Shown: in pieces, positions 9,152 through 23,662 of the stretch | Layout: every line of letters starts with the position of its first letter | Position numbering within the stretch: the first letter of the stretch is position 1 | NCBI GenBank assembly: GCA_903863885.1 | Contig: CAIPEB010000438.1 | Location: forward strand, 1-64,000 | Direction: 5' to 3' | Origin: an uncultured Planctomycetaceae bacterium | GTDB lineage: Bacteria; Planctomycetota; Planctomycetia; Pirellulales; Pirellulaceae | DNA: 64,000 bases | The notes under the pieces: generated by a model | Database searches by the model: none | What the model saw: only the letters and a program-made list of their open reading frames with translations | Told to the model about the DNA's origin: nothing | Translations under genes and position numbers: made by a program

Positions 9152-9201
9152 AGGTCACTCCTTGTGGTCTGGGACGAAAGTTCTCGTTCGTAGCTGACGA
9201 T

Positions 9202-9215
9202 CCGCCGCGCGGCGG
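9202..9215. repeat. Perfect 14-bp GC palindrome between gvpC-like gene and gvpN
   Basis: CCGCCGCGCGGCGG reads the same on both strands. It lies in the 87-base gap downstream of the gvpC-like stop (9239) and upstream of the gvpN start (9151). There is no T-run, so it is not a classical terminator; it could be an RNA processing or stability element, a protein-binding site, or chance in GC-rich DNA. Confidence 0.4.
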
Positions 9216-9238
9216 GTGGTATCGGCGGTTCAACCGGG

Positions 9239-9655
9239 CTACTCGCGTGCCCGCATTTCGCGCCACAGCCGCGTTGCGGTCTGGCACTGCGTGCGGAACT
9301 CTACCTGGACTTCATTGAAGCCCTTGAGCATCTCGTTGACCGCCTCTTGGCGTTCACGCTGGTTGGCATCCAGCTTGTCCCGCAAGTCATCGGCTGCTGC
9401 CTGCTGCTTGGCGCGGGTGGCCTCGCGAAAGGCCTGAACCTGCTCCGAGCGTTCACGGCAGTTGGCCGCCAGCGCTGCCTTGTCCTCGGCCGCCTGCTCG
9501 CGCTGTTCCGCCTGGACGGACTGCATGGACCGAAGATTCTCGTCCATCAGTTCCTTGGTCTGCACCTTCAACTCCGCGACCGCCGTCTGCCGCCCTCGTT
9601 TGGCGGCGAACACCGAATCGCAGAGGGACTGAATTTCCTCGGCAAAGTTTGGCAT
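9239..9655 (-). CDS. GvpC-like gas vesicle outer protein with 33-residue repeats
   Basis: Start chosen at the ATG at 9655 (GGAG about 10 bases upstream) rather than the in-frame GTG at 9685. The 138-residue product is almost entirely charged amphipathic helix rich in Gln, Glu, Arg and Ala. It shows three loosely repeated units: Leu at 29, 62 and 95, and the motif NCRERSE at 65-71 against NQRERQE at 98-104, all exactly 33 residues apart. Cyanobacterial GvpC is built from 33-residue repeats that wrap and stiffen the shell. Together with its place directly between gvpA and gvpN, where gvpC sits in cyanobacteria, this supports a GvpC role. Sequence similarity is low, so the name is inferred; a generic coiled-coil protein is the alternative. 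Confidence 0.75.
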   Translation of the reverse strand: MPNFAEEIQSLCDSVFAAKRGRQTAVAELKVQTKELMDENLRSMQSVQAEQREQAAEDKAALAANCRERSEQVQAFREATRAKQQAAADDLRDKLDANQRERQEAVNEMLKGFNEVQVEFRTQCQTATRLWREMRARE

Positions 9656-9699
9656 GGACCTGATCTCCACTTGACTGAGCGACACCGTTTAGACCCACT

Positions 9700-9735
9700 C
9701 CGACGGCAAGGGCCACAATGGGCCCCTGCCGTCGG
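9700..9735 (-). terminator. Strong stem-loop between gvpA and gvpC-like gene (attenuator-like)
   Basis: In the transcript of the minus strand, a 15-base arm (complement of 9721-9735) pairs with the complement of 9700-9714, with one G-U wobble and a 6-base loop. It begins 29 bases after the gvpA stop. No U-run follows, so full termination is unlikely; partial termination or protection of the gvpA mRNA 3' end is more likely. This would let GvpA, the bulk shell protein, be made in excess over the downstream products. Confidence 0.65.
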
Positions 9736-9764
9736 GTCCCCTCTCAAGCGGTTGCCGGACGCGA

Positions 9765-9983
9765 TCAGGCGGGAGCGGCCGCAGTCGCGGTCAAGCCAAT
9801 TGCCTCGGCGTACTTCAGGTAGGTCTCGACCGACGCGATCACCACGCGGGCCTCCACCGACAACAGCTCGATGCCCACGAGGGACACCTTCACCCACGCA
9901 TCCACCACGATACCCTTGTCCAGGATGCGGTCGACGACTTCCGCCAAACTGGAACTGTCCGTTGACTTCATGACCTTGGCCAT
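9765..9983 (-). CDS. gvpA: Major gas vesicle shell protein GvpA
   Basis: The ATG at 9983 has a consensus AGGAGG 7 bases upstream, the best ribosome binding site in the cluster, as expected for a very abundant protein; longer in-frame starts are not needed. The 72-residue product has the textbook GvpA sequence: [40 protein letters not shown] and [14 protein letters not shown]. GvpA polymerises into the ribs of the gas-permeable, water-excluding shell. It is the only true GvpA in the window, with GvpJ and GvpS as divergent relatives. A sigma-54-like site lies about 105 bases upstream and a large hairpin follows the gene. Confidence 0.98.
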
Positions 9984-10082
9984 CTCGCAACCTCCTATCC
10001 CAATCTGAAAACACTTCTCGCATCGGCCCCGCACGAGCGAGTACTTGGGAACACCCCGAAGCATTCCGGCGAGTTGGAATTC

Positions 10083-10664
10083 CTATTTAGCGAACGGCAT
10101 GCCGGTACCTCCGCTTTTTTCAATTGATGACCGCAACTGTTCTATTGATATGGTCTTAGAGTTTTTTTCATCAGAAACGGCCTGATTCAGTCCGTCGGCA
10201 TCGGCCACTTCGGTAGGTTCGCAAATACCACCCTGAGGTACCGAAGGCCCACCGCGCGACACTTCGGGCTCCACGGAACGCGCCACGGCAAACCGCTGCA
10301 GTGCATTCTGGATCTCCGACAGCAAGAAGGGCTTGCCGATAAAGCCGACGATCAGCCCCGAAGCCAGCGCTCCCTGGACGACCTCGTCGTCTTCATAGTG
10401 AAAACCTGAGACCATCATGCACGGCAGGCCCGGTGAGCGGGCCGTGAGACGCCGCACGAGTTCAAAGCCGTCGATGTCGGGCAGCTTGACGTCGACAAAC
10501 GCGAACTGGAATACCTCGCGGTCGACGAGCTGCTGAGCCTCGAGTGCGGTCTTGGCCGCGGCACAGCTGTGCCCCTGCGACACGACGATCTGCCGCAATG
10601 CCCAGCACATGTCGTCTTCGTCGTCCACCACCAGGACGCGGATTCGCTGAGGATCCGTGTTCAT
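10083..10664 (-). CDS. Receiver-domain response regulator without output domain
   Basis: A 193-residue protein. Residues 8-125 form a CheY-like receiver: acidic pair in VVDDEDD (13-18), phosphoacceptor D58 in FAFVDVKLPDIDG, the switch Ser in MMVSGFH and the conserved K111 in FIGKPF. The last 70 residues have no recognisable DNA-binding domain. It is probably a phosphate sink, relay or protein-protein regulator cooperating with the histidine kinase and NtrC-type regulator of the same cluster. It lies between gvpK and gvpA; a sigma-54-like site overlaps its 3' end, so its transcript probably runs into gvpA, which can also be started separately. Confidence 0.9.
   Translation of the reverse strand: MNTDPQRIRVLVVDDEDDMCWALRQIVVSQGHSCAAAKTALEAQQLVDREVFQFAFVDVKLPDIDGFELVRRLTARSPGLPCMMVSGFHYEDDEVVQGALASGLIVGFIGKPFLLSEIQNALQRFAVARSVEPEVSRGGPSVPQGGICEPTEVADADGLNQAVSDEKNSKTISIEQLRSSIEKSGGTGMPFAK
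10089..10105 (-). promoter_or_regulatory. Sigma-54 (-24/-12) promoter-like site upstream of gvpA
   Basis: On the minus strand the bases read CCGGCATGCCGTTCGCT. The GG (complement of 10102-10103) and GC (complement of 10090-10091) are separated by exactly 10 bases, the invariant sigma-54 spacing. It matches the better site at 15909-15925 at 13 of 17 positions, including CGTTCGCT. Transcription would start near 10078 and leave a leader of about 95 bases before gvpA. It lies inside the end of the response-regulator gene. Confidence 0.55.
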
Positions 10665-10715
10665 GGAAACACAGTCGGTTGGCAGTTGACGCGTGACGAC
10701 GGGCGAGTGCTCACG

Positions 10716-11069
10716 CTAGAGAAGTTTCCCCAATGGCCCCAGGTCGATATTCAGGTCCTCGCCCTCCAGACCGAATTCGCGTTTCATGCGTTCCATCTGC
10801 TCGGATAACTGTAGAAACGTCGTGCCCAGCCGCTCGACTTCCTCGTCGGTCAGCGAACCCGCATCAATCCGGCGTATGGCCTGCCGCTCCAGCAATTCGC
10901 GCAGCAGTTCCACCAGCGTCAGCACGAGCCGCCCCAGGCCGTTCTTGACGTCCTCGGTCTTCAGGTCCAGCCGCGGCGCGCGACTGCTGGTCTGCGGAGT
11001 CATGATCCCGGCAAAGTCGCCCAGCGACGCGGAGTCCGCTCTCGGCAGATTCTGCACCTCGAAGGTCAT
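10716..11069 (-). CDS. gvpK: Gas vesicle protein GvpK
   Basis: Start taken as the ATG at 11069, which overlaps the gvpS stop by four bases (ATGA); the frame is open further upstream but only as a shadow of gvpS. The 117-residue product carries the GvpK signature: LGRLVLTLVELLRELLERQA, IRRIDAGSLTDEEVERLG and a final DLNIDLGPLGKLL. GvpK is a small essential accessory protein needed in the early steps of vesicle assembly. The overlap points to coupled translation of GvpS and GvpK. Confidence 0.94.
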   Translation of the reverse strand: MTFEVQNLPRADSASLGDFAGIMTPQTSSRAPRLDLKTEDVKNGLGRLVLTLVELLRELLERQAIRRIDAGSLTDEEVERLGTTFLQLSEQMERMKREFGLEGEDLNIDLGPLGKLL

Positions 11070-11296
11070 GGGTCCCTCGCAGCCGGCTTCTCCGGCCAAT
11101 TGCCAATCTGAAGTTGTTTGGCCGACTCGACCGACGTCAGCACCAGCTGCAGGCCGAGGTAGATCAGATCGATGTCCGCCACCGAGATGATGACCTCGCC
11201 CGCAATCACCACGCCCTTGTTCAGCACGCGGTCGAGCGTTTCGCACAGCGAAATGTGCTCTTCATGGCCGTTCGTGGTCGCGATCTCCGGATGCAT
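11066..11296 (-). CDS. gvpS: Gas vesicle protein GvpS/GvpM-like (GvpA family)
   Basis: A 76-residue GvpA-family protein: CETLDRVLNKGVVIAGEVII, then VADIDLIYLGLQLVLTSVES. The ISVADIDLIYLGL strand is closer to Bacillus GvpS than to GvpA, GvpJ or GvpM, which is why this symbol is used; GvpM is the main alternative. These minor relatives are thought to help nucleate or cap the shell. The gene is followed by gvpK with a 4-base overlap. The short C-terminal tail lacks the coiled coil seen in GvpJ. Confidence 0.85.
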   Translation of the reverse strand: MHPEIATTNGHEEHISLCETLDRVLNKGVVIAGEVIISVADIDLIYLGLQLVLTSVESAKQLQIGNWPEKPAARDP

Positions 11297-11359
11297 ATGC
11301 GATCCCCCGTGCGCTGCAACGGCAACGCGTTCCGGCCGGCGTCCCCGCGCTGCGATACA

Positions 11360-11716
11360 TCACTCCGATTCTTCGGCCGGCAGCCAGCCGCGGCCATGGC
11401 AGTTCAGGCACGGCAGGCACGGAGCCGAACCGTCATCCCCCGAACCCCGGCATTCCGGACAGGGAGCACTCGGCCCGTCCGGCGCTGCGATGGCTCCCGC
11501 GCCGTGACACACCGTGCAGGTGAATGTCTTCACGGCCCCCGAGCCGTTGCAGTGAACGCATGGAATGCGCGGGACGGGCAGCGAGACGACGCCGCTCCCT
11601 GAGCACACGGTGCACGTGGAAAGATACGACATGATGCCGAACGGATCCTTGCCGGTGCCGCGACAAAAAGCGCAGGCCGCATTCTCCGACGTCCGTTCCT
11701 GTTTTTCGACGCTCAT
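11360..11716 (-). CDS. Stand-alone DnaJ-type zinc-finger protein
   Basis: A 118-residue protein starting at the ATG at 11716; the longer frame would run into the TPR gene. It contains six C-x-x-C-x-G-x-G type modules beginning at C15, C35, C53, C67, C86 and C103 (for example CAFCRGTG, CTVCSGSG, CVHCNGSG). The DnaJ central domain has four such modules binding two zinc ions, so six could bind three. No J-domain is present. It is probably a cytoplasmic chaperone-like or redox-active helper that binds unfolded hydrophobic gas vesicle proteins, an inference from location. It lies between the TPR-like gene and gvpS. Confidence 0.8.
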   Translation of the reverse strand: MSVEKQERTSENAACAFCRGTGKDPFGIMSYLSTCTVCSGSGVVSLPVPRIPCVHCNGSGAVKTFTCTVCHGAGAIAAPDGPSAPCPECRGSGDDGSAPCLPCLNCHGRGWLPAEESE

Positions 11717-11811
11717 GAGGAGATCCCCCGTCGATCGTGCTTCAGCGAATTGCCCATCTCCGTCCCCACGACTCTGCCGCTCCCGTCCTCCATCGCGGCA
11801 GATTGTCCCGA

Positions 11812-12162
11812 TCAAGTCGCTGCGCCCGCGGCTCCCAGCAGTCGTTCATATATGCTGCGGGCCTGCCGCAACTGTCCCTGCAACTCGTATTCCTCCGAGA
11901 TCTCCAGCAATCGTCCGCCGGCCTGCTGGCCTTCCAGCGACGCCGGGTGCTTCTCCACCAATTCGAAGTACATTTCGAGCGCCTGCTTCGGAGCGCCCGA
12001 CCGGCGATAGGTGTCCGCCATCCGCAGCAAACGGCCCAGAATCGGCGACGGCCCGGCCGGCGACTCGGAAACTGTCACTGTGACTTCGCGCACCTGGACT
12101 TCTCGCGGCTGCAGCGGGATTTCCAAATGCAGCTCGGCGCTGTCGGGGGATGAGTTATCCAT
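11812..12162 (-). CDS. Small TPR-like protein in gas vesicle cluster
   Basis: Start at the ATG at 12162, with GGAGGT 6 bases upstream; an open frame reaching further upstream is a shadow of the ArsA gene. The 116-residue product has a variable N-terminus (PLQPREVQVREVTVTVSES) and then helical pairs, RLLRMADTYRRSGAPKQALE and RLLEISEEYELQGQLRQARS, spaced like tetratricopeptide repeats. TPRs mediate protein-protein contacts. It probably acts as an adaptor for the neighbouring ArsA ATPase or zinc-finger protein, but no partner can be shown from sequence. Confidence 0.75.
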   Translation of the reverse strand: MDNSSPDSAELHLEIPLQPREVQVREVTVTVSESPAGPSPILGRLLRMADTYRRSGAPKQALEMYFELVEKHPASLEGQQAGGRLLEISEEYELQGQLRQARSIYERLLGAAGAAT

Positions 12163-12194
12163 GATGACCTCCAGAGATTGAGTTGCTCCAAACA

Positions 12195-14174
12195 CTATCC
12201 GTACAATTCCCTTCCGAGCCGCGACAGGCGGTCCATTCCGCGCGGCTCGCCGCAGCGAAACACGTCCGCCTGACGGACGTCGGCCAGAAAATCGGCGAAA
12301 GAACGGCGAATGCGCGCCTCGGCGACCGCCAATTCCCGGCACAAAGGACAATCGCTGGCGGGCGTGGCCAGATTCAGGAATAAGGCCGGCACGTACACGT
12401 GCGCCTCGCGACAGGCTGCCAGCAGATCGCGTGTCTCGTCCAGCGCCATGCGAGTCAGTATGCTCACCGCGAACAACTGCGTTCGACGCGGATCGCAAAG
12501 CAGCGATCTCAGCAGCTTCAGACGCTTGGACATCTCGACCAGGTACTCCACAATCCGCGGCAGCCGAATCAGATTGCGGTACTTGAGGAACAGCCCGAAC
12601 ACCGCCTTCAGCCATCGTTCAATCAACTCGGGTGTTTCCAGCAGCCGGATCAAGTGTCCGGTCGGTGCGGTATCCAGGACGAACAGGTCGTATTCGTCGG
12701 CGTCCAGCAGTTCGACCGCCCGCAGCAAAGCCATCACTTCATCCAACCCGGGCGGCGACAGATCGAGAATCCGCTGCACGACATCATGATCGAATTCCAG
12801 GTCCATTCCGCTGCTGTTCAGCAGCGATTCGAAGAACCCCTCGACCTCGGTGAGATAACGCTGCTTCAACGTCTCGAACTCCGCGGCCGCGTCGACCTCC
12901 ATCACAAACACGCGGTCGGTCAACGGAACCGGCTGCGAGCCGACCGGCCGCTCGAGACAATCGGCCAGCGAATGCGCCGGATCGGTCGAGAAGAGCAGGA
13001 CTCGTTTCCGTGAATACGTCTCCGCGAGCCGCAATGCCGAAGCGCAGGCCAGCGTGGTTTTTCCGACGCCGCCCTTGCCGGCGAACAGAATCAGCCGCGT
13101 CTCGCCGTTGGGCAGCGCAGGCTGCCGCATCGCCAGCGGAACCAGAGGTACCGGCGCTTCAACGTGCTCCGACGGCTTTTCAATCCGGGCAATGCCGTCC
13201 CAGAATCCGCGCAATGCCTTGTTTCCGCGGACTTCCGCCGGATACATCGGAATTCCCCACAGTTTCAGGCCGCTGAACTGCGCCGCGGCGTGGGCCAATT
13301 CGCGTTCCTGTTGGCGGTGTGCTTCGCGGCAGACCAGGCATTCGGCGCCCGATGGAAAAAGCCGATTGACAAGCACGTCCTCGACCGAGATCTGCAGCGT
13401 CCGCAGGCGGGCCGCCAGCCGCTCGGTTTCGTTCACACTCATGGCCTCGGCGAGCATCACGGGAATGAAACGGCACTGGCAGTGGTCCGTAAGCAGCGAC
13501 GCGAGCCGGTTGATCGAGCCCCGCAGATCGGTGAGAAACGCCTCCGTTTCATCCTCGCGGTCGGGCGGGCCATAAAGTTGAGCGAGGAAACGGTGCTTGG
13601 CCAGCATGGCGTCGCAGGCGCCGAGCCACACCCGCATCAAGTCCGGCAATTCAAGAAACCTCAGGGTATGCCCGGTCGGCGCCGTGTCGATCAGCATGCA
13701 GGAATACTTTTCTTCCTGCAGAACGGCCGCGATGTTCAAGAACGCCATCAGCTCGTCGAAGCCCGGCAACGACAGATCCAGGAACTGCGAAATGTCGTCG
13801 TCGTCCAGGAAAGTGCCGCGCCGCGCGATCTCGCGGAAGTGCGCGACATGTATCGCGCGGAACTGGTCCAGGCTCTGACGAAAATCGATTTCCCGGCAGG
13901 TCAGATTCTCCGGCAGCGCCGTCCCGGCAAGGCTGTCGCTGAGCGAATGTGCGGGGTCCGTCGAAGCCAGCAGAAAGGTGCGCTGCGGAAAACGGGTGGC
14001 CAAGTCGATCGCAGAGGCCGCGGCGCACGTGGTCTTGCCCACCCCGCCCTTGCCTCCGAACAGCAGCAGGCGAAGCTGCCGGTCATCGAGAAATCCAGGC
14101 CTGCTCGCGATCACAATCGACGCCCCTTCCCGCGCGGTGACGCGGCCGTCGAGAGCCTTGCCGGCAACTCTCAT
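12195..14174 (-). CDS. ArsA/GET3/TRC40-family ATPase with two fused ATPase domains
   Basis: A 659-residue tandem of two similar ATPase domains. Domain 1 has the deviant Walker A GGKGGVGKTT (40-49), STDPAHSLSD switch I and DTAPTGHTLR (163-172). Domain 2 has AGKGGVGKTT (365-374), STDPAHSLAD and DTAPTGHLIR. Each domain ends with a C-x-x-C (CLVC, CPLC) like the zinc-binding pair that dimerises GET3. The arsenite-specific cysteines of ArsA are not apparent and no arsB or arsR is nearby, so arsenic efflux is unlikely. GET3-type enzymes shield hydrophobic segments of tail-anchored proteins; by analogy it may chaperone hydrophobic gas vesicle proteins. It lies between gvpG and the TPR gene. Confidence 0.92.
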   Translation of the reverse strand: MRVAGKALDGRVTAREGASIVIASRPGFLDDRQLRLLLFGGKGGVGKTTCAAASAIDLATRFPQRTFLLASTDPAHSLSDSLAGTALPENLTCREIDFRQSLDQFRAIHVAHFREIARRGTFLDDDDISQFLDLSLPGFDELMAFLNIAAVLQEEKYSCMLIDTAPTGHTLRFLELPDLMRVWLGACDAMLAKHRFLAQLYGPPDREDETEAFLTDLRGSINRLASLLTDHCQCRFIPVMLAEAMSVNETERLAARLRTLQISVEDVLVNRLFPSGAECLVCREAHRQQERELAHAAAQFSGLKLWGIPMYPAEVRGNKALRGFWDGIARIEKPSEHVEAPVPLVPLAMRQPALPNGETRLILFAGKGGVGKTTLACASALRLAETYSRKRVLLFSTDPAHSLADCLERPVGSQPVPLTDRVFVMEVDAAAEFETLKQRYLTEVEGFFESLLNSSGMDLEFDHDVVQRILDLSPPGLDEVMALLRAVELLDADEYDLFVLDTAPTGHLIRLLETPELIERWLKAVFGLFLKYRNLIRLPRIVEYLVEMSKRLKLLRSLLCDPRRTQLFAVSILTRMALDETRDLLAACREAHVYVPALFLNLATPASDCPLCRELAVAEARIRRSFADFLADVRQADVFRCGEPRGMDRLSRLGRELYG

Positions 14175-14194
14175 TCGCCGCCCGCTTTCACCCG

Positions 14195-14575
14195 CTATTC
14201 CTCATCGTCGATCTCGAGTTCGTCGTCCGCGAGTTCCTCTTCGTCGAACTCTTCGTCGTCGAACTCCTCCTCGTCCTCTTCGATTTCGTCGGGCTCTTCG
14301 TCTGCGTCGTCCGCAGACTCTTCGTCGCCGATCTTCATCGCCTCCGTGCGGGCTGTTTCGATTTCATCCAGCCGGTCGAGCAGCGCCCGTTCGCGTTCGT
14401 CGAACTCCGCCTCGCTCAACTGCTGCGTCTCGAGACGCATGTACAGTTCGCTCAGCTCCGTGCGGATCGCTTCCGATTCGCTGGCCGCATCCTGCTGGGC
14501 CGCGTTGTAAACTTCCCGGAACACGGCCATGATCCCGCGCGCGGGCATCATCAGCAGATCGTCGAGGAGAAACAT
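14195..14575 (-). CDS. gvpG: Gas vesicle protein GvpG with long acidic tail
   Basis: Start at the ATG at 14575 (GGGAG upstream). The first 80 residues are classical GvpG: FLLDDLLMMPARGIMAVFRE, then a helical stretch with LSEAEFDERERALLDRLDEI. The last 45 residues or so are almost only Asp and Glu (EDEEEFDDEEFDEEELADDE is part of it), which makes this GvpG about half as long again as the usual 80-90 residues. GvpG is a small accessory protein that works with GvpF/L during assembly. The acidic tail may bind basic partners or prevent aggregation, which is inference. It follows gvpF by 50 bases. Confidence 0.92.
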   Translation of the reverse strand: MFLLDDLLMMPARGIMAVFREVYNAAQQDAASESEAIRTELSELYMRLETQQLSEAEFDERERALLDRLDEIETARTEAMKIGDEESADDADEEPDEIEEDEEEFDDEEFDEEELADDELEIDDEE

Positions 14576-14625
14576 GACTGGCTCCCGCGTGGTTTCGCCG
14601 TCCGGCGTATGCTCCGGTCTCGGCG

Positions 14626-15405
14626 TCAAGTCTGCAGAGTGATGTCCACGAAATTGTGCGGTGGCCAGGGGCCGTTGAAGTCAAACGCAAAATGGTGGTC
14701 AAAAAACTTCGCGGCGGCGAACACACCCTCTTCGAATGCTTTCTGCTGTCCGCGCTCAATGAGGCAGGCCAGGTTCATCACCTCGCGCTCGTCGCGGGGC
14801 TTGTTCTCCTTCACCTCGAAGCACTGGGGGCCGAGCACGCTCAGCACCTGCGCAATGTGGTGTTCGCGATCCTGCAGCAGGGCGCGGTCAAAGGTCCTCC
14901 CCAGCTCGATCTTCTCGTCCTGCGTCGGCTCGCGGCTGGTGCGGAACAGGCTGTCCCGCAACAGCTTCAGATCGGCATGCGTATCGACGAAGTACTCGAA
15001 GATGTTGGGCACGTCCCAACAGACGCGCAGACCCATCTCGACCTTGCCGGCAAAGCGATCGAGCTGCTCGCCAAACGCTTCTTCATTCTTGTCCAGGATG
15101 CGCTGCACGGCGTCGCCGCCGTCCGCCACGACACCGAAAGCCATCGGCAGGATCGTCTCGGTCTGCAGCAGCCGCTTGAGCACTTCGTGATGCGCGGCAA
15201 GCCGGCGGCGCTCGGGACGCAGCCGCTCGTTCGGAATGTCGCTGACCACGGCGGCAACTCGCGATTTGCCGATGGTGTACACCATCCCGCCGTCGATCCC
15301 GAACGGCCCGAACTCGTCTTGAGTCGGCCGCGAGATGATGGCGTAAAGGTAACGACCGGTGACTTTGCTGGACTTCTGCGGCTTTTCAAGGGCGCTGGCG
15401 GACAT
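14626..15405 (-). CDS. gvpF: Gas vesicle protein GvpF/GvpL
   Basis: A 259-residue member of the GvpF/L family and the most canonical of three in the window. The N-terminus reads GRYLYAIISRP, the middle has HHEVLKRLLQTETILPMAFG and the C-terminus NGPWPPHNFVDI, all family hallmarks. GvpF is a two-domain protein that binds GvpA and is found on the gas-facing side or in early assembly complexes. GAGTCC lies before the ATG. It precedes gvpG as in most clusters. Confidence 0.94.
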   Translation of the reverse strand: MSASALEKPQKSSKVTGRYLYAIISRPTQDEFGPFGIDGGMVYTIGKSRVAAVVSDIPNERLRPERRRLAAHHEVLKRLLQTETILPMAFGVVADGGDAVQRILDKNEEAFGEQLDRFAGKVEMGLRVCWDVPNIFEYFVDTHADLKLLRDSLFRTSREPTQDEKIELGRTFDRALLQDREHHIAQVLSVLGPQCFEVKENKPRDEREVMNLACLIERGQQKAFEEGVFAAAKFFDHHFAFDFNGPWPPHNFVDITLQT

Positions 15406-15453
15406 GAGAGGGACTCCTGAGTGGGGGCGCCGCGAGGCGCAACTTGCAATGCT

Positions 15454-15765
15454 TCAATAACGGATCTCTTTGGCCTTGATGCGCCGGCCGGTATCGGGCG
15501 GCGTTTGGGGACAGACGATGCCCACCATGTCCGGTTCTTTGACAAATCCCTGCAGGCGATGCTCTTTGGCGGCGATCTCTTTCAGCCGCTCCACGATCTC
15601 CGCCTGACGACGGGCCGCGGCCGTGAGTTCCTTGTTCAGACGCTCCTTCTCATTCGCCAGTGCCGACAACTCCAACAGGGCGCCTGCCGCGGTGCGAGTC
15701 CGCCGCAAATCGACCAGGGACCCCATCGTCTTGACACCGCGAAGCGTTTTTCTTGCGCCGCTCAT
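15454..15765 (-). CDS. Short coiled-coil protein, first gene of the sigma-54-driven gvp unit
   Basis: A 103-residue protein I cannot assign to a family. After a basic N-terminus, residues about 28-70 are a coiled coil (LLELSALANEKERLNKELTA, then RRQAEIVERLKEIAAKEHRL), followed by a conserved-looking tail with PDMVGIVCPQTPPDTGRRIK. AAAGG lies about 7 bases upstream of the ATG. It is the first gene behind the sigma-54 site at 15909-15925 and is followed by gvpF after 48 bases. A structural or adaptor role in vesicle assembly is likely but unproven. Confidence 0.75.
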   Translation of the reverse strand: MSGARKTLRGVKTMGSLVDLRRTRTAAGALLELSALANEKERLNKELTAAARRQAEIVERLKEIAAKEHRLQGFVKEPDMVGIVCPQTPPDTGRRIKAKEIRY

Positions 15766-16095
15766 CGCAAGGACCTTTCATGCCCGAGAAGAACCGACCG
15801 GGGACAACCGCTTGACCGCTGACGTGAGGAAAGGGGACATACATCCGTTCCGCGCCGGCGAACGTCCAGGGACCGACTCCGGCGCGCTCGCTTGGCAATC
15901 GCACCTTGAGCGAACGCCGTGCCAATCCAGCGGGGGGCAGGCAGCCGCTCGCCGAACTGACGGCCGACCAGGGAATTGGGCCGCGATCGTGCCTGCCGGT
16001 CACTCAGGATGCGGGTATCCCATCGCCGTCGCGGGAGCGGAAAATACCACTGAGCGGGTTCGCATGCCCACTGGCCCGACCACAGAAGTGGGTTG
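15766..16095. other. Intergenic control region inside the gvp cluster
   Basis: This 330-base gap separates the histidine kinase from the coiled-coil gene in an otherwise tightly packed run. No convincing gene fits in it; open frames here are short and run into neighbours. It holds a near-consensus sigma-54 promoter, leaving about 170 bases upstream of that site for enhancer-type sites of the NtrC-like regulator. I looked for a clear inverted repeat there and saw only weak candidates. Confidence 0.6.
15909..15925 (-). promoter_or_regulatory. Sigma-54 (-24/-12) promoter of the gvp structural unit
   Basis: The minus strand reads TTGGCACGGCGTTCGCT against the consensus TTGGCACG-N4-TTGCW. The -24 block is perfect, and the GG to GC spacing is exactly 10 bases; the only core change is TCGC for TTGC. 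Transcription would begin near 15898, about 130 bases before the first gene. An NtrC-type activator gene (19273-20757) lies in the same cluster, as this promoter class requires. Confidence 0.8.
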
Positions 16096-17685
16096 TCATG
16101 CCGCGTCGTAGTCGCCGCGTTCCCTGCCCAGCGGCAGCATGACTTTGACGGTCGTCCCCTGGCCCTCCTGGCTGGCAATCTCGATCTTCCCGGCGTGCTG
16201 CTGCACGATGGTGTGGCAGATCGACAACCCCAGCCCGGTACCCTGGCCCAGCGGCATGGTGGTGAAGAAAGGATCAAAGACCTTCCGCAGGTGCGCCGCC
16301 GGAATGCCGCAGCCGACGTCGGCCACAAATAGCAACGCGTGCGAGTCGGTGAATTCCACCGTAACCGCCACGTTGCCGCTCCGCCCCGCCATCGAATGCA
16401 CTGCGTTCAGCACCAGGTTCGTGACCAGCTGCTGCAGCAGGCACGCGTTCCCGTGCACGACGACGGGGTCTTCCGGAAACTGCGTCAGCAAATCGTGCTT
16501 GGCCATCGCTCCCTGCTTGGCTACCGCCGCAAGAGCTTCCGTAATGATCGGGCGCAGATCAAGATCCGTTTTCCTGCCCTTGTCCGGAGGCCGCGCGAAC
16601 GAGAGCAGGCCTTCGATGATGCCGGCCATCCGAACGACGCCGTGACAGATCCGCTGGACGCATTCCTCGGCGCCGTCCGGCGGCAGGGAATTGTCCTGCA
16701 GCAACTGGGCGGCGGCGGAGACCACGGCCAGCGGATTGCGGAGTTCGTGGGCGATGCCGCCGGCGAGCACCCCGAGCGACGCCAGTTTCTCGTTCTGCAG
16801 CAGCTGGGCCTCGAATTCGCGGCGTTCCGTGAGATCTCGGCCGACCGCCACCAGCGCGATCACCCGCCCGTCCGCATCGCGCATCGCCGAGAATACCCAC
16901 GAGATCGGTATGATCGCGCCGCTGCGGCTGTTCAGATCCACCTCGACGGGTTCGGTCCGTCCATGTTGGCGAACACGATCCAGGACATCGGACAGCAGCT
17001 GCCGATGCGACTCGACTCCCAGATCGCAGAGCGGGCGATCGCAGACCTCGTAGGCCTCGAAACCGAGCACATGCCCGGCAGCCGTGTTCCACGTCAGGAT
17101 CTCGCCCGAGGGACGCAGCGACAGGACGATATCGCTCGCGCTCTCGATCACACTGGCCAAGTGCCGCTCCGCGTGCCGGGCTTCCTCGCCGAGCCGGATC
17201 ATGTCGGTGATGTCTTCCATCAGCAACATCACGGCGTCGACTTTTCCGTCGCCGGGGAAGGGGATCAAGCTGTAGTAATACGTGCGTGAAGGCAGCCCCG
17301 GGGCGCGATAGACCAGCCGCTCTCCCTCGGTCGCCTTGCCGCTGCGAAACACCTCGGTGACACGCCGCCGAAAATTCAACTCCTGATAAATCACGGTCGG
17401 AAAGACTTCTTCAAGCCGCCGCCCGAGCACCGCGGAATGCGCCAGTCGCGACTTGGACAGGAACTTGTGATTGGCCAGCACGATCCGCAACTGAGGGTCG
17501 AGCAGCAGGACCGAGGAGGGAATACGGTCGAGCACCATGAGGCACAGTCGACTGTCCCGCGTCGGATCCAATCCTTCGAGCAGCGCGCCGACCATCGCCG
17601 GACTTGGCACGCGACACTCTCCCCCCGCGGTTGTCTCGACGGAGGGAGAGCCCTGATTTTCAGGCGCCCGCCAATGCGACGTCAT
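16096..17685 (-). CDS. PAS-domain sensor histidine kinase
   Basis: The ATG at 17685 overlaps the preceding GvpF/L stop by four bases; an open frame further upstream is a shadow of that gene. The 529-residue product has no membrane segment. It has two PAS domains (about 50-160, RIPSSVLLLDPQLRIVLANH; and about 175-290, with a DLTERREFE exit), a HisKA helix with phospho-His H313 (AHELRNPL), N-box N423/N427 (TNLVLNAV), G1 box DVGCGIP (456-462) and G2 box GTGLGLS (482-488). This is the NtrB/AtoS/ZraS-like class that phosphorylates NtrC-type regulators, and such a regulator lies three genes upstream in the same unit. The signal is cytoplasmic and unknown; redox, oxygen or nitrogen status are possibilities. 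Confidence 0.92.
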   Translation of the reverse strand: MTSHWRAPENQGSPSVETTAGGECRVPSPAMVGALLEGLDPTRDSRLCLMVLDRIPSSVLLLDPQLRIVLANHKFLSKSRLAHSAVLGRRLEEVFPTVIYQELNFRRRVTEVFRSGKATEGERLVYRAPGLPSRTYYYSLIPFPGDGKVDAVMLLMEDITDMIRLGEEARHAERHLASVIESASDIVLSLRPSGEILTWNTAAGHVLGFEAYEVCDRPLCDLGVESHRQLLSDVLDRVRQHGRTEPVEVDLNSRSGAIIPISWVFSAMRDADGRVIALVAVGRDLTERREFEAQLLQNEKLASLGVLAGGIAHELRNPLAVVSAAAQLLQDNSLPPDGAEECVQRICHGVVRMAGIIEGLLSFARPPDKGRKTDLDLRPIITEALAAVAKQGAMAKHDLLTQFPEDPVVVHGNACLLQQLVTNLVLNAVHSMAGRSGNVAVTVEFTDSHALLFVADVGCGIPAAHLRKVFDPFFTTMPLGQGTGLGLSICHTIVQQHAGKIEIASQEGQGTTVKVMLPLGRERGDYDAA

Positions 17686-18422
17686 GATTGCCACCTCGGC
17701 GTCTTCCAGGCTGCGAAGCTGTATGGCGGCCAGGGACCGGTAAGCAGCAAACGGTCCGGCGAGTCTTCCTGCAACTGCGCGAATGCCTGGCGAAAACCAG
17801 CGAGCGCCGCGCGCGAAACCAGAAAACACAACGACCCGGAACCACCCGGACCCGCCGGAGGTGGTTCGGCCACCGAGTCGATCGACCACCCTGCAAATGC
17901 CAGGCCGCACCGCTGCACCGCCTGTTCAAAAACTCGCCGGCTGCGATCATGGCCGTCGAATCGTCGCCGGCGCTGCGCAAGATAGGCCAAGCCGGCGGAA
18001 GCGGCCGAGATCGCGGGCGATGCGGATGCCGGTTGGTCTGCGGCAATCTCGCCATCGGGTTCGGCGGGAAGCACCCGGAGTCCCATCTCGACACAGCCCT
18101 CGACCCGCCGCAGGCCCTCCTGCAGCGATATCGAGTTGCGGCTGAGCAGTTGCCGAAGCTCTTCCTCCCGATCCAGCCAATAGCCGTATCGCATCGGGAG
18201 CACCGTGACCCGCTGGAACAACGCCTCGACGACGCCCGCGTAAGCCATGAGATCCGATACGGAGGGGACCGCTCCCGCCGATTGGCTCGGTCCGGCCGGA
18301 GACCAGGCGGCTGCCAGCGGTCCCGCACTGACCGTGGCCAGCGGAGTCCCGTCCCCCCCCGCTGCCTGTGCGGCCTGCAGCGTGTCTCGGCTCCAGAAAA
18401 TGCCGTACACCAGGTGTTTCAC
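17682..18422 (-). CDS. Gas vesicle protein GvpF/L paralogue
   Basis: Start set at the GTG at 18422, which overlaps the preceding stop by four bases (GTGA) and gives the family-like beginning MKHLVYGIFWS; an ATG further upstream would overlap the neighbour by 49 bases. The 246-residue protein has the GvpF/L pattern: AGVVEALFQRVTVLPMRYGY in the middle, VEGCVEMGLRVL, and the terminal LTGPWPPYSFA. It is more divergent than the copy at 14626 and lies between another GvpF/L gene and the histidine kinase. GvpF/L proteins interact with each other and with GvpA during early assembly. Confidence 0.88.
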   Translation of the reverse strand: MKHLVYGIFWSRDTLQAAQAAGGDGTPLATVSAGPLAAAWSPAGPSQSAGAVPSVSDLMAYAGVVEALFQRVTVLPMRYGYWLDREEELRQLLSRNSISLQEGLRRVEGCVEMGLRVLPAEPDGEIAADQPASASPAISAASAGLAYLAQRRRRFDGHDRSRRVFEQAVQRCGLAFAGWSIDSVAEPPPAGPGGSGSLCFLVSRAALAGFRQAFAQLQEDSPDRLLLTGPWPPYSFAAWKTPRWQS

Positions 18423-19249
18423 GGCGACTCGTCCCCCCAGCGCGGACAGAAGTTGAAGGGAGGCCACGGCCCCGTGATTTCGAGCGTCAAGCCACGGTCA
18501 CGATGCGCGGCCTGAACTCGCTCCGCGTAGTCCCGGAAAGCGCCGACCGACACTCGGGGCAGCAGCAGCGCGGCATGCAGGATCATCTCCCGCCCCGAAT
18601 CGTCGGGCGGACGGCTGCCGAGCGGTCGGACCTCCACCGCAGGTGCCGTCAGGTCGGCGGCCAGCGACTCGGCCAGCGTTCGCCCCAATTGCCGCGCCCG
18701 CTCCTGGATCTCCGCCTGAAGCCGCTTTTCCTGGAAATAACGGGCACCCGGCGCTGCGGGGAGCCTCTGGCGCCGCTCAGCAAGCGCCGGATCGCTGAGT
18801 GCCACCCATTGCTCCGCCGCTTCCGAGTGCAGATAGCCTTTGAGCGACCATTCTTCCAGTTCCCGCATGCGGTCGAGAAACTGCGAGATCTCGCCGAGTC
18901 TCGGCCGCATGAACTCGAGCAGCGCCGCTTCCGATGAGAATATCGCCCCGAAACGCACCGGCAGCACGGGCCCCCGCGCCAGGTGCTTCTCGATCACCTG
19001 CTCATGAGCCAGGGCGCGCGGAATCACCCACTGCGAATCCTGCAAGTGAGCTTCGGCCGCCGGCCCCTGCCAGTCCGCCAGCGGCACGGTCGAAAACACG
19101 GCCGCAACCTCCCCCGCGATCAGCCTGCCCCGGCCCGAGGACTCGACGTCCGGCGGCTCGGCGGGAACCCCCGGTGGCGTGAAGCAATACAGGTAAACGC
19201 CGCGTCCGCTGAGAGACTGCTCGCACGTCTCCTGAATTGACGGAAACAT
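18419..19249 (-). CDS. Gas vesicle protein GvpF/L paralogue
   Basis: Start at the ATG at 19249 with GGGAG 7 bases upstream; a longer frame would overlap the NtrC gene. The 276-residue product starts with GRGVYLYCFTPPGV, has ALAHEQVIEKHLARGPVLPV followed by RFGAIFSSE, and ends in ITGPWPPFNF, all GvpF/L features. It is coupled by a 4-base overlap to the next GvpF/L gene. Having it in the same transcription unit as the two-component regulators could let the cell link regulator and assembly-factor supply. Confidence 0.9.
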   Translation of the reverse strand: MFPSIQETCEQSLSGRGVYLYCFTPPGVPAEPPDVESSGRGRLIAGEVAAVFSTVPLADWQGPAAEAHLQDSQWVIPRALAHEQVIEKHLARGPVLPVRFGAIFSSEAALLEFMRPRLGEISQFLDRMRELEEWSLKGYLHSEAAEQWVALSDPALAERRQRLPAAPGARYFQEKRLQAEIQERARQLGRTLAESLAADLTAPAVEVRPLGSRPPDDSGREMILHAALLLPRVSVGAFRDYAERVQAAHRDRGLTLEITGPWPPFNFCPRWGDESP

Positions 19250-19272
19250 CTGCAATCTCCCGCAAACCGTGC

Positions 19273-20757
19273 TCACTCGTCGGTCCCGGATCGACTCCAC
19301 TCCAACGGAATGAGCTTGTACTGCTTGGCCTTGATCCGGATCGTCTTGTAGTCCATGTGCAGCATCATCGCAGCCCGCTTCAAGTTCCCGTGAGTCTTCT
19401 TGAGGTACCGCTCCAGGATCGAGCGTTCCGCGCTGCACGTGATGTCATGCACCATCTCTTTGAATGTCGCTTCATCGACGGACTCCGCTGCGACGGACTC
19501 CGATCCGATGGAAACCGGCAGGGAGGAAAGTGGCGGGGCAAGCGGCACGGCTGCCTCGGTTTCCTCCCGCGGCTCGACGATCTCGGCCAGTTGCAGATGC
19601 TCCTCGGTAATCGTGGATTCCGCCAACAGGACCGCTCGCCGCACGACGTTGCGCAACTCGCGGACATTGCCGGGCCAGGAATGTGCGAGGAGGGCCTCGA
19701 CAGCCGCGTCGGTCATCAGCATCGGCGAGCGGTGCAGTTCCTTGCAGGTCCAGTCCAGGAACCTCTTCGCCAGGAATATGACGTCTTCGGGACGCTGACG
19801 AAGCGGCGGGATCGTCGTGCTGAGTTCATTCAGCCGGTAGTACAGGTCGCGGCGGAACTCGCCCTTTTCGACCAGACTCGCCAGGTCTTCATTCGTCGCC
19901 GCGACGACCCGCACATCGAGTTCGACCGGAGCGGTGCCGCCGATATGGTGAATCACGCGCTCCTGCAGCGCGCGCAGCAGCTTTGCCTGCATCGCCAGCG
20001 GCAGGTTGCCGATCTCGTCGAAGAAAAGCGTGCCGCCCATCGCGGCCTCGAAGCAGCCGACCCGGGCATGATCGGCCCCCGTGAACGCGCCCTTTTCATG
20101 CCCGAACAGTTCGCTTTCGATCAGCGTCGCCGGGATTGCCCCGCAATCAACCGCCACAAACGGACCGGACGACCGCCGGCTCAGCCGATGAACGGCCTGA
20201 GCCACCAGCTCCTTGCCCACGCCCGTCTCGCCGTGGATGATCATTGTGAAGTCCGACGCCGCGACGCGTTCAATCCGCGAGACGACGTTTTGGATGGCAG
20301 CACTGGGCCCCATGACCTCCCTGAGCAGAAATCCGTCCAGCGGCGAAACCCGCTTGACACCGCTCTGCTTGCGGGGGCGTCCGGCCAGCGCCATGCGAAC
20401 GGCCAGCGTCACATCGTCATTCTTGAACGGCTTTGTCAGAATGCCGTCGGCCGCATGCTCGCCGGCCTCGACCGCCACGTCCTCGCTGCCGTGCCCGGTG
20501 ACCATGATCACGGGCAGGGAAGCGTTCAGCTGTCGAACCGAGCGGAGAACCTCCAGCCCGTTCATCCCCGGCATCACAAGGTCCAACAGCAGCACATCGG
20601 CCAGACCTTCACGGACCATCCGCAACGCGGCCTGTCCATTTTCGGCCGCCAATGGCTCAAAGCCCTCTTTCCGCAGAACCGCTGTCAAAGCCCATCGAAT
20701 GCCCGCGTCATCGTCAGCGATCAATACTCGCGAGGGCTGTGCTGTAGTCCGGCTCAC
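19273..20757 (-). CDS. NtrC-type sigma-54-dependent response regulator
   Basis: A 494-residue protein with the complete NtrC plan. The receiver (8-125) has DD at 15-17, phospho-Asp D59 (LLLDLVMPG) and K109 (LTKPF). The AAA+ domain (about 145-380) has Walker A GETGVGKE (176-183), the sigma-54-contacting GAFTGA loop (223-228), Walker B GGTLFFDE and the WPGNVREL motif. The Fis-type helix-turn-helix is at about 440-482. It starts at a GTG overlapping the preceding stop by four bases. GAFTGA is intact, so it should activate sigma-54 promoters; the sites at 15909 and 10089 are the obvious local targets. An equivalent regulator (GvrA) is known for Serratia gas vesicles, as I recall. Confidence 0.95.
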
Positions 20758-21389
20758 GGCGTCCCCTCCTGTGTCTTCACAAGGCTCTCTTCAGTTGCCA
20801 GCTTGCGGATGCGGATGCCAGCCGGCAGATGCGGATCCAATGAGTGCAACATGCCGAGAAACAGCAGGCCCGTTTCGCCAACTTGCAGCGTGTCGTTGAT
20901 GCGGCTCGCGATAAAAGCGTCCCGGCGTTCCAGCGTGCGGCGACTTGCGTCCTGCTGACTGCGGCCGACTGTCCTGGAGCCGCCGCTCTCCATGGAACAC
21001 AGCACCTGTTGGGCCAGTTCATATTCCGCCAGCAGCAGCTCGGTGGACTCCGTGCCCATCAGCTGTGCGCCCCGCCCGATCAGGTCCAGCAGCAATTGAT
21101 GGTTCTGACTTCCGGCTCCGGCGAGATCCTGCACGATCTTGGCCTCGTGACCGCAGGCCGGCAGACCATCCTGATAAAGCCGGACTCGGCGATAATCCAG
21201 ATTCAGCAAGTCCAGATTCTCGCGAATCTGCTGCCAACGCGCGTCGACAGACCGCACGTGCTGTTCCCACTTCTGCTTGCCCACTCGCCGAATGTAGAGC
21301 CGGCGTATGGACTCGCTCATGCTGCCCTGGTCCACCTGCGAATGGATTATCGGAACCCAGATGACGTCTCGCACCATGTCGTCTGCCAT
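20754..21389 (-). CDS. Conserved unknown protein, first gene of the gas vesicle run
   Basis: A 211-residue cytoplasmic protein that I do not recognise by name. It begins VIWVPIIHSQVDQGSMSESI, has a WEQHVRSVDARWQQIRENLD helix, then YRRVRLYQDGLPACGHEAKI, and ends with RRDAFIASRINDTLQVGETG and LLFLGMLHSLDPHLP. The two histidines at the ends of the hydrophobic strands (VPIIH and LGMLH) look like a conserved pair, reminiscent of a hydrolase or metal site, though this is speculation. It is translationally coupled (4-base overlap) to the NtrC-type regulator, so it is probably part of the signalling or stress-sensing input. Confidence 0.8.
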   Translation of the reverse strand: MADDMVRDVIWVPIIHSQVDQGSMSESIRRLYIRRVGKQKWEQHVRSVDARWQQIRENLDLLNLDYRRVRLYQDGLPACGHEAKIVQDLAGAGSQNHQLLLDLIGRGAQLMGTESTELLLAEYELAQQVLCSMESGGSRTVGRSQQDASRRTLERRDAFIASRINDTLQVGETGLLFLGMLHSLDPHLPAGIRIRKLATEESLVKTQEGTP

Positions 21390-21627
21390 GGTCCACTCCG
21401 ACCGTTTTCAGGGCGGGATTCGTCAACGCAGTAGTCGTCACGGCGCGGATAGCGGCTGCACCGGCTCCCCCTTTTCCGGCAGAACCGCACAGCAAGGCAC
21501 GCGAATTCACCAACCGAAATCCGGAGTCGCCAAACTTCCCCACCCAAAACCCCGGTGCCGCAGACAATTGGGCGCTCAAAATTAAAGATTGCCACCTAGC
21601 ACCCGATTACGTGCGCAGAACTCCCAT

Positions 21628-21656
21628 AATCTACAACTGCGAAAAATTAATACCAA
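21628..21656 (-). promoter_or_regulatory. Possible sigma-70 promoter upstream of the regulator operon
   Basis: On the minus strand TTGGTA (complement of 21651-21656) is followed after 17 bases by TAGATT (complement of 21628-21633); each hexamer matches the housekeeping consensus at four of six positions with ideal spacing. It would start transcription near 21621, about 230 bases before the first gene. The match is modest and the DNA is AT-rich, so chance is possible. Confidence 0.3.
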
Positions 21657-22293
21657 TGGGTAAATTGCGACATTCTCTATGGGGACGCGACTATCCTGCG
21701 ACTCTATTGATTATTAATACCGCCACGGATTATCAACTCTGCAAAACACCGCATTCTGCATGCCGGGCCGGCAACTGGAAACCGCCACGACGGATCGCGC
21801 AACTCCGACGTGCATCAGAATTGCCAATACCCAAGAAGGCGGCTTTTTTCGATGTTTTCGCAGCGCAGCAGCAGACACGCGACCACACCCGCCGGAAAAC
21901 GCGGACTCGCCGCTCTCACAATTAGCCGCACCCGCAGCACCGCGGATGACCATACACTACCAAGCAGTCTATATATACTGCCACGCGACTAATGTGATTA
22001 AGAAACTCAGTCCGACACGTCAGCAACACTCATTCGAGAGCTACATGAAGTGACCGACTAAGTGCTTTAGAGATGCCTGGACGACTCAAATTGTAAAACA
22101 CTTCCGCAGCACTCTGGTGCTGCACCTTTGGCACCCACGGCTTAATTAGTGCTCCCAGTCCGACCGCAAACAAGGCATAGGGGCCTCCTAATCGTCCAAT
22201 GTTTTATCGCATTCTTCCGAGGCCCGTGCAAGCAGATTGAAACACTCATCCCGAAAGGAGCAGTAGCGGCCACGGGGCATACGCGGTGGAGGT

Positions 22294-22599
22294 TCACCTC
22301 GCAGGATGAAAATGCGGATGCCTGATGCCGGAAATCGGCAGTAGGCAATCGGTTGGATGTTCGTGTTCCTCCAGATTCCATACTTCTTCGCACGAGACGT
22401 CTTCTCTCAGCCGCAGTCGTTCGTCGAGCACATCCCAGGGTTCTTTGGCACCTGGTCGATTCAGTCTGGCCGGATCCGACCGGGCGCGAGCATCCATACC
22501 GCCCGGCGCTCCATCGACGATGACCAGACGCGATGATCTGGCCGGACCAGCGTCGGCCATCCGTACGAACGCCGGGAATTCCTCTGTCGTATTCGACAT
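22294..22599 (-). CDS. Weak hypothetical ORF (possible gene remnant)
   Basis: A 101-codon frame with balanced composition (SNTTEEFPAFVRMADAGPAR at its start, SCEEVWNLEEHEHPTDCLLP near its end) in the GC-rich half of the large gap. The opposite strand is serine-rich, as expected for the antisense of a coding region. No ribosome binding site precedes the ATG and no family is recognised. It may be a remnant of a longer gene or not a gene. Confidence 0.25.
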   Translation of the reverse strand: MSNTTEEFPAFVRMADAGPARSSRLVIVDGAPGGMDARARSDPARLNRPGAKEPWDVLDERLRLREDVSCEEVWNLEEHEHPTDCLLPISGIRHPHFHPAR

Positions 22600-22720
22600 A
22601 CCAATGGAAACGAACGCCGAATTGGCAGTTATCTCGATCGGAATCCAGCGGTTCGTGTCTTATTGAATGAGCGGAGAAGATCGGGATAGGGCCGCAGGAC
22701 TTTGATCGTGGAGGCGCAGT

Positions 22721-23662
22721 ATGCCCAGCGAATCGATCCATGCTGTAACCGGAGCCTACGGATACTCCGGCAAATACATTGCCCAGCGTTTGCTGGGTGA
22801 AGGCCGGAATGTCATCACACTGACCAATTCCGTTTCCCGGACGAATAACTTCGGCGACCGGATCAAGGCGTTTCCGTTCGACTTTGACGAACCCGACAAG
22901 CTGGCCGAGCATTTGCACGGCGTCTCGGTTCTCTACAACACGTACTGGGTGCGGTTCAATCATCGCCTGTTCAAGCACGCCGATGCGGTGCGGAACACGC
23001 TTATGCTGTTTGAGGCGGCCAAGCGGGCGGGCGTCAAGAGAATCGTCCACGTCAGTATCACGAACCCTGCGGAGGGCTGCGGGCTGGAGTACTTCGAAGG
23101 CAAGGCCACCCTGGAAAAGGCGCTGATCGAGTCGGGGATTTCCCACGCCATCCTGCGGCCGGCAGTCTTGTTCGGCAAGGAAGACGTGCTGATCAACAAT
23201 ATCGCCTGGGTCCTGCGCCGACTTCCCGTGTTCGGAGTGTTCGGCAATGGACGATACCGTATCCAGCCGATCCATGTGGATGATCTGGCTGCCTTGGCTG
23301 TCGAGCAGGGCAAGGTCCGCGAGAATGCCATAATCAACGCCATCGGGCCGGAGACCTTCACCTTCCGTGAGCTTGTGGCGAAGATCGGCGAGATCATCGG
23401 CAAACCCCGTCCCGTCATATCCGTTCCGCCGCGATTCGGTTACGTAGTGGGGCGATTGCTTGGAACGCTCGTCGGAGATGTGGTCATCACTCGCGAAGAG
23501 ATCGAAGGCCTGATGGCCGATCTCCTGTATGTGAACGCGCCGCCCGCCGGCACGACGGTGCTAACGGATTGGGTCAAGGCGCACGCCGAAACCCTGGGCC
23601 GCTCGTACACAAGCGAACTGGCCCGCCGGACGGATCGGACGTCTGCGTACAGGTCGAACTGA
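22721..23662 (+). CDS. NAD(P)-binding NmrA/NDUFA9-like epimerase-reductase
   Basis: A 313-residue atypical short-chain dehydrogenase. The N-terminal nucleotide-binding motif is TGAYGYSGKYIAQRLL (GxxGxxG pattern, residues about 10-25). The middle has RIVHVSITNPAEG and LEYFEGKATLEKALIESGIS, in which the YxxxK pair of classical SDRs is replaced by FxxxK (F-E-G-K), and LRPAVLFGKED, which matches the NDUFA9/NmrA class. GGAGG lies 8 bases before the ATG. Such proteins act as redox sensors, quinone-related reductases or nucleoside-diphosphate-sugar epimerases; the substrate is not predictable. It is a single gene facing away from the gas vesicle cluster. Confidence 0.85.
   Translation: MPSESIHAVTGAYGYSGKYIAQRLLGEGRNVITLTNSVSRTNNFGDRIKAFPFDFDEPDKLAEHLHGVSVLYNTYWVRFNHRLFKHADAVRNTLMLFEAAKRAGVKRIVHVSITNPAEGCGLEYFEGKATLEKALIESGISHAILRPAVLFGKEDVLINNIAWVLRRLPVFGVFGNGRYRIQPIHVDDLAALAVEQGKVRENAIINAIGPETFTFRELVAKIGEIIGKPRPVISVPPRFGYVVGRLLGTLVGDVVITREEIEGLMADLLYVNAPPAGTTVLTDWVKAHAETLGRSYTSELARRTDRTSAYRSN

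Follow-up and report, generated by a model that had tools for sequence, protein, structure and literature searches.

A probable second sigma-54 promoter in a planctomycete gas-vesicle gene cluster

The gas-vesicle gene cluster described here most likely contains a second sigma-54 promoter, specific to its lineage and belonging to a gas-vesicle switch of the GvrA type. The site, named P2, lies in the gap between a histidine kinase gene and the gene in the GvpV position; another site, P1, lies upstream of gvpA. P2 is probably a working promoter, the second of two, which would be run together with P1 by the GvrB/GvrA-type system of the cluster. We favour this reading because P2 has a perfect –24 element, exact element spacing and the best score in the window (the whole 64-kb stretch of DNA that was analysed), because the regulators are intact and the genome has one rpoN gene, and because a survey of gvpA sites and the precedent of Serratia agree with it. 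Further reasons are the –12 variant that P2 shares with related sites, its likeness to the gvpA site of locus L315, the presence of GTGGTATTT upstream of both P1 and P2, and the order of the kinase and 103-aa genes, which among the loci compared is found in the window only. The sites, the genes, their differing order and the comparative pattern are read directly from the sequences.

The gas-vesicle gene cluster

The window is a contig of an 11.0-Mb genome assembled in 789 contigs. The gas-vesicle cluster occupies the minus strand from 21389 to 4670. Its genes, with the evidence for each assignment, are as follows.

20754–21389, minus strand: 211-aa protein without family, which stands before gvrA in many related clusters (locus comparison)
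19273–20757, minus strand: gvrA type, receiver, sigma-54 interaction AAA+ domain with GAFTGA and Fis-type helix-turn-helix (Pfam, motifs)
18419–19249, minus strand: gvpF/L copy 1, start codon inferred (PF06386)
17682–18467, minus strand: gvpF/L copy 2 (PF06386)
16096–17685, minus strand: gvrB type histidine kinase, PAS-PAS-HisKA-HATPase (Pfam, motifs)
15454–15765, minus strand: 103-aa coiled-coil-like protein in the GvpV position (relatives in 18 other loci; no family)
14626–15405, minus strand: gvpF/L copy 3 (PF06386)
14195–14629, minus strand: gvpG (PF05120)
12195–14174, minus strand: ArsA-type ATPase, two domains (PF02374)
11812–12162, minus strand: TPR protein, start codon inferred (TPR matches in the longer open reading frame 11812–12615)
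11360–11716, minus strand: DnaJ-type zinc-finger protein (PF00684)
11067–11296, minus strand: gvpA/J-family protein, gvpJ-like (PF00741)
10716–11066, minus strand: gvpK (PF05121)
10083–10664, minus strand: single receiver protein, 193 aa (PF00072 at residues 10–122; comparison of open reading frames)
9765–9983, minus strand: gvpA, main structural protein (PF00741; NCBIfam NF006874)
9239–9685, minus strand: 148-aa coiled-coil-like protein in the gvpC position, without family
8033–9151, minus strand: gvpN (TIGR02640)
7494–7808, minus strand: gvpA/J-family protein, gvpJ-like (PF00741)
6882–7403, minus strand: Hsp20-type chaperone (NF041800, slightly below cut-off)
4670–6829, minus strand: CDC48-type AAA ATPase (PF02359, PF00004)

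An earlier note on this DNA had placed an NtrC-type activator with intact GAFTGA in the cluster. Pfam matches and motifs bear this out, and the Walker A motif and the receiver Asp region are present as well. The gvrB-type kinase, placed after the gvpF copies, has its H, N and G boxes. The GvpV position, filled here by the 103-aa gene, lies between gvpN and gvpF/L in relatives. The genome has a single sigma-54 gene (one Sigma54_DBD match, in a 516-codon frame) with the RpoN box ARRTITKYR. Downstream of the cluster, a Ser/Thr protein kinase with PAS domains is encoded on the minus strand at 844–2751. The third best sigma-54-like site of the window, TGGCAATTCTGATGCA (21811–21826, minus strand), is found in A+T-rich DNA upstream of the gene for the 211-aa protein. 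It was rejected as a conserved promoter: any site scoring at least 9 is found there in only four of 42 relatives, about the null rate.

A sigma-54 site in the largest gap of the cluster

15909–15925, minus strand: P2, sigma-54 site TTGGCACGGCGTTCGCT (sequence; best matrix score in the window)

Sigma-54 promoters have the –24/–12 consensus TGGCAC ... TTGC(A/T). The matrix used here was built from consensus frequencies, its absolute scores are rough, and shuffles and other genes served as controls. The 17 letters of P2 run from 15925 to 15909 and the 16-base site itself from 15924 to 15909. As the earlier note had described, the –24 element (TGGCAC) is perfect and the GG-N10-GC spacing exact. 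P2 has the top score of the 64-kb window (14.9) and is its sole match with at most one mismatch to TGGCACNNNNNTTGCW. The transcription start computed from the spacing is at about 15898.

The –12 element, TTCGCT, has one mismatch to TTGC(A/T). This C is probably no defect, because it is carried by six of 17 planctomycete gvpA sites versus one of 43 other sites (loci including the best 80 of 579 gvpN matches). The TTCGCT variant is common to P2, P1, several other planctomycete gvpA sites and the site of L315. Of 16 bases, P2 shares 13 with P1 and 14 with the gvpA site of L315.

Sites as good as P2 occur by chance at a mean of 0.6 per 64 kb on both strands (20 simulated windows, two-base context). 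The strength of the match is by itself without significance, and it is because of this chance rate that the location of P2 matters. The gap between the kinase gene and the GvpV-positioned gene is 330 bp long, the largest within the cluster; the second largest is 224 bp. For this gap alone, on one strand, the chance rate is about 0.0015, and it is higher if all cluster gaps are counted. P2 is a good site in a telling place, not a self-proving one.

The site had also been described as standing in front of the gvp structural genes. It does stand upstream of accessory gvp genes. The main structural gene gvpA (9765–9983) is found 5.9 kb downstream of P2, where a separate site, P1, precedes it; P2 is not the gvpA promoter.

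It is conceivable, and in our view unlikely, that P1 is the only sigma-54 promoter and P2 a chance match; the genes from the gvpV-like gene to gvpK would then be transcribed by read-through from gvrA-gvrB or from an unseen housekeeping promoter. The expectation of 0.6 equal sites per 64 kb fits this alternative, as does the presence of P2 in only one of the 19 loci having the downstream 103-aa gene, namely the window, which counts against P2 as a promoter; the conserved upstream box described below is also absent. A chance match would, however, have to be the best site in 64 kb, fall, correctly oriented, in the widest gap that the cluster has, carry the –12 variant of its own lineage and have GTGGTATTT at the same distance as at P1 (pair null 0.011). 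Nor does a sigma-70 scan of 7000–22800 supply a housekeeping promoter on the cluster strand: two promoter-like sites were found versus 2.2 expected, both on the opposite strand.

The gvpA site and the rearranged gene order

10089–10104, minus strand: P1, sigma-54-like site CGGCATGCCGTTCGCT upstream of gvpA (matrix; comparison with other clusters)

P1 overlaps the final codons of the receiver gene and has a predicted start at 10078. Its matrix score (10.1) is weaker than that of P2. Its placement relative to the receiver domain and gvpA equals that in other clusters. The receiver open reading frame encodes 193 aa in the window versus 98–168 aa in the others measured, and its tail (10083–10290, minus strand) extends across the DNA in which other clusters have the enhancer and promoter, as though the frame had lost a stop codon. 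In 35 of the 37 other loci tabulated, a sigma-54 site lies 71 to 565 bases beyond the receiver stop; the two that deviate are L108, where bases are masked, and L069, where the distance is 904.

The loci compared, which include the best 80 of 579 gvpN matches, contain 39 kinase matches. In 34 of these the next gene after the kinase, the receiver being skipped, is gvpA; only in the window is the kinase followed by the 103-aa gene, and among the same loci only the window has gvpK before receiver and gvpA. The cluster of the window appears to be permuted, with P2 at the rearrangement junction. From the gene order and the receiver-to-site distances, P1 is therefore best read as the counterpart of the gvpA sites of other clusters, the ancestral promoter of gvpA, which travelled together with its block, and P2 is read as occupying the junction that remained. 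P2 would have arisen with the rearrangement. No genome with the gene order of the window was found, which counts against this reading of P2. Searches of the P2 gap for receiver, gvpA or gvpN remnants gave nothing at E below 0.1, and the alignment of the gap with the post-kinase region of L094 is limited to the kinase end and the bases directly behind it.

The closest gvrA among the matches listed is in genome G1536 (56%, in two adjacent pieces); the next full-length one is 49%. The gas-vesicle genes of G1536 are split, regulators and accessory genes being on one contig and gvpA elsewhere: the cluster L296 has no gvpA, and a gvpA gene that stands alone on a second contig (L315) is headed by the sigma-54 site TGGCACGAGGTTCGCT. 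Neither gvpN nor the kinase was seen in the stretches L296 and L315.

In L305, from a relative of the same class (genome G1525), gvrA, the kinase and CDC48 are each matched in two pieces, and the genome has no GvpA-family match. The L305 cluster is perhaps decaying. A similar decay of the switch in the lineage of the window, with the sites as relics, the enhancer lost and the cluster poorly expressed or under other promoters, would fit L305, the absence of the box at both sites and the extension of the receiver frame through the gvpA promoter region. We regard it as very unlikely, as the regulator, kinase and gas-vesicle genes of the window are all open, with their motifs intact.

Sigma-54 sites upstream of gvpA in other bacteria

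The loci had two origins. One was genomes of the order and phylum, where 3 of 147, 26 of 392 and 9 of 396 have the gvpF/L family; the other was a scan in which species genomes were compared with an alignment of gvpN, and from which the best 80 of 579 confirmed matches were used. Duplicates (L069, L155, L156 and L160) were left out, and 78 loci with gvpA and upstream DNA remain. A site was counted if it scored at least 9 within 350 bp upstream of gvpA.

In this set, limited to those best 80 of 579 gvpN matches on the scan side, 40 loci have gvrA, and 36 of them have a gvpA site (35 of 39 if the window is left aside). The site is also found in three of the nine loci that lack gvrA despite 8 kb of upstream sequence, and in 21 of 29 loci of undecided gvrA status. 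The four gvrA loci without a site (L118, L134, L148 and L153) count against the proposed switch, as do the four such loci of the held-out set below. Clusters that have gvrA tend to be those that have the site (Fisher P 0.001). Shuffled upstream regions have a site in 6% of cases, and the regions upstream of twelve other genes of the loci have one at rates of 2% to 14% (48 of 710 overall).

The three loci with a site and no gvrA would be no true exceptions. For L087 and L107, a different contig of the genome carries a gene that resembles gvrA strongly (364 and 378 bits, the scores of other paralogues going up to about 330), and L140 stops next to the gene for the 211-aa protein, after which gvrA usually follows. 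The genome of L090 has a 408-bit gvrA match, yet its gvpA has no site.

A held-out set was drawn from the phyla of two already-used loci, duplicates removed, and from plasmids; five of its loci had no gvpA match and one was too short. The site is present in 11 of 15 held-out gvrA loci, the others being L252, L257, L263 and L264. It is also present in four of eight loci without a gvrA match (L244, L249, L253 and L256), three of which come from contigs shorter than 14 kb; L255, a gvrA cluster, belongs to the same genome as L256. Plasmids of Methylosinus and Methylocella have gvrA and the site, and plasmids of Spartinivicinus and Octadecabacter have neither. Within the class of the window, L302 has gvrA and a site (18.5), and L297 to L301 have no gvrA and no site (best score 8.4), three of these five repeating L088, L089 and L093. 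Locus L303 (genome G1341) has a site of 17.5 and no gvrA within its 19 kb. These results give a rule that can be tested: where a cluster includes gvrA, its gvpA has a sigma-54 site, and where gvrA is missing, the site mostly is too.

The association also bears on which activator P2 would answer to. Each of the 18 other genomes searched has 17 to 89 matches to the activator, and the window has no box; P2 could in principle be a sigma-54 promoter that answers to an activator other than that of the cluster. Since the gvpA site goes with gvrA in the cluster itself, we give this hardly any weight.

Candidate activator-binding sites

A motif search of 59 sites revealed a palindromic box, CTATGGAA-N4-TTCCATAG, upstream of the gvpA sites in many gvrA clusters. 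Over 20 positions its log-likelihood is 297 versus 25 to 28 in three shuffled sets; near-identical loci were partly retained, and the shuffled sets had fewer starts than the real set. A box score of at least 15 is reached in 32 of 59 regions versus 0.06% of shuffles. These are training data, the matrix having been built from the same regions, and the held-out set alone is an independent test: there, six of 15 non-duplicate loci with a site have a box of at least 15, the lowest scoring 15.02. The distances from box to –24 element (37 boxes) are phased near 11 and 22 bp. An exact search of 59 genomes found the box in four, in three of them within gas-vesicle loci; in the fourth its position was not placed, and that genome also matches the reversed control. 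We regard the box as a candidate GvrA enhancer.

Neither P1 nor P2 has the box upstream, which counts against the reading with two promoters, and the box is not enriched in the genome of the window (75 matches versus 77 for the control). Other gvrA clusters, e.g. L112, L113 and L133, also are without it, whereas that of Desulfocicer vacuolatum (L123) is among those that have it. The recognition helix of GvrA is nearly uniform across clusters and that of the window is similar, yet the window has no box. A regulator site had been predicted in 15926–16095; by sequence, this region lacks the conserved box and offers a divergent candidate element alone, which has a partner upstream of P1.

16042–16080, minus strand: candidate activator element upstream of P2, with GTGGTATTT at –126 (position match with the P1 region; found post hoc)
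10223–10260, minus strand: candidate activator element upstream of P1, with GTGGTATTT at –127, in the long tail of the receiver frame

Both are candidate GvrA elements. The two copies of GTGGTATTT are the only ones in the whole window. The 40-bp similarity around the word has a shuffle P of 0.0015 and is not unique in the window, where the P2 element has one slightly better match elsewhere (32 versus 31). GTGGTAT occurs, inverted, at –126 in L315 (0 of 3000 shuffles). These position-locked tests were run after the word had been noticed, and their P values are optimistic. The whole-length alignment of the two upstream regions is not significant (35 versus a null maximum of 42), and the six-base core of the element is found upstream of none of the 58 other sites.

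Proposed mechanism

The promoter activity of P1 and P2, the phosphorelay and the activator-binding sites are predictions. The GvrB-type kinase would phosphorylate the NtrC-type, GvrA-type activator, which would bind about 120–150 bp upstream of P1 and P2 and then loop, its ATPase opening the closed complex of sigma-54 RNA polymerase at both sites. P1 would drive gvpA, the 148-aa gene and gvpN; P2 would drive the gvpV-like gene, gvpF/L, gvpG, arsA, the gvpJ-like gene and gvpK. In most of the related clusters compared, a single predicted promoter stands before gvpA, right after the kinase and receiver genes. In the window the receiver-gvpA-gvpN block would have been relocated behind gvpK together with its promoter, and P2, at the vacated junction, would keep the accessory genes under the same control. 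The two-component control of gas-vesicle production proposed earlier is the best reading, given the Serratia precedent and the comparative survey; what changes is the place of P2 in it, as a second site and not the promoter of the main structural gene.

More tentatively, and with somewhat less than even confidence, we suggest one ancient GvrA/sigma-54 gas-vesicle switch across many phyla, with the helix-phased palindrome as its enhancer; in the lineage of the window the cluster would have been permuted, the promoter doubled and the enhancer changed to a GTGGTAT-type site common to both promoters.

Comparison with known systems

Systems of the NtrC/NtrB type consist of a PAS-containing kinase and a receiver-AAA+-HTH activator acting at –24/–12 promoters. 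The window has the same kinase and activator architecture and a –24/–12 site; it differs in that its regulator scores 410 bits versus the NCBIfam cut-off of 558.6 for true NtrC and sits in a gas-vesicle cluster.

The closest precedent is Serratia sp. ATCC 39006. The gvpA1 start has been mapped there with a sigma-54 site before it, and gvrA, gvrB and gvrC are required for full expression (PMC4982088); in an rpoN insertion mutant vesicles were lost and transcription of gvpA1 fell (PMC11778176, citing a thesis). The likeness consists of a sigma-54 site before gas-vesicle genes, the NtrC-type activator GvrA in the cluster and its partner GvrB (PMC4982088, PMC11778176). The tabulated Serratia order is gvrA, then gvpF copies and gvrB, as in the window, with gvpN-gvpV-gvpF-gvpG (PMC9501494). 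Serratia has one mapped sigma-54 promoter, at gvpA1, and a sigma-70-type promoter at gvrA, whereas the window has two candidate sigma-54 sites, one of them before the gvpV-like gene, and a permuted order.

In haloarchaea, as summarized in PMC9501494, the cluster-encoded activator GvpE and a short upstream element (a 20-nt upstream activating sequence) likewise control gvpA; it is an archaeal activator beside BRE/TATA promoters, with no sigma-54. In Cereibacter sphaeroides, according to PMC11999139, gas-vesicle genes are also under a phosphorelay (CckA/ChpT/CtrA), but CtrA controls them and sigma-54 (RpoN3) acts merely indirectly, via the repressor XrpA.

As far as the available literature tells, Serratia is the one organism in which gas vesicles have been shown to be under sigma-54/GvrA control. 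The mechanism is known in kind; judged by titles or the beginnings of abstracts, none of the publications found points to the box, the breadth or a planctomycete case. The breadth of the GvrA/sigma-54 association, the box and the second promoter appear to be new. P2 adds the case of a rearranged cluster seemingly held under one control by a second promoter. For moving such clusters to another host, the results show which regulators and promoters must accompany them.

Other gas-vesicle loci

Several loci have unusual arrangements of genes and sites. On the Methylocella tundrae plasmid (L178:8518–9913), gvrA is annotated as two pieces and a sigma-54 site is present. In genome G1341 (L303, L316; 5.47 Mb in two contigs) the gvpF copies are dispersed throughout the genome, and a strong site, TGGCACACCAGTTGCT, precedes gvpA by 173 bp. 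Three gvpA genes are present in locus L162, a Myxococcales record, and every one is preceded by a strong site (13.8 to 15.0) at –76 or –77. Locus L101, which carries the label Candidatus Anammoxibacter, includes a pair of gvpA genes separated by 4.4 kb (L101:3594 and L101:8009); both have the identical sigma-54 site TGGCATTTAGTTCGCT at –173, another doubled promoter.
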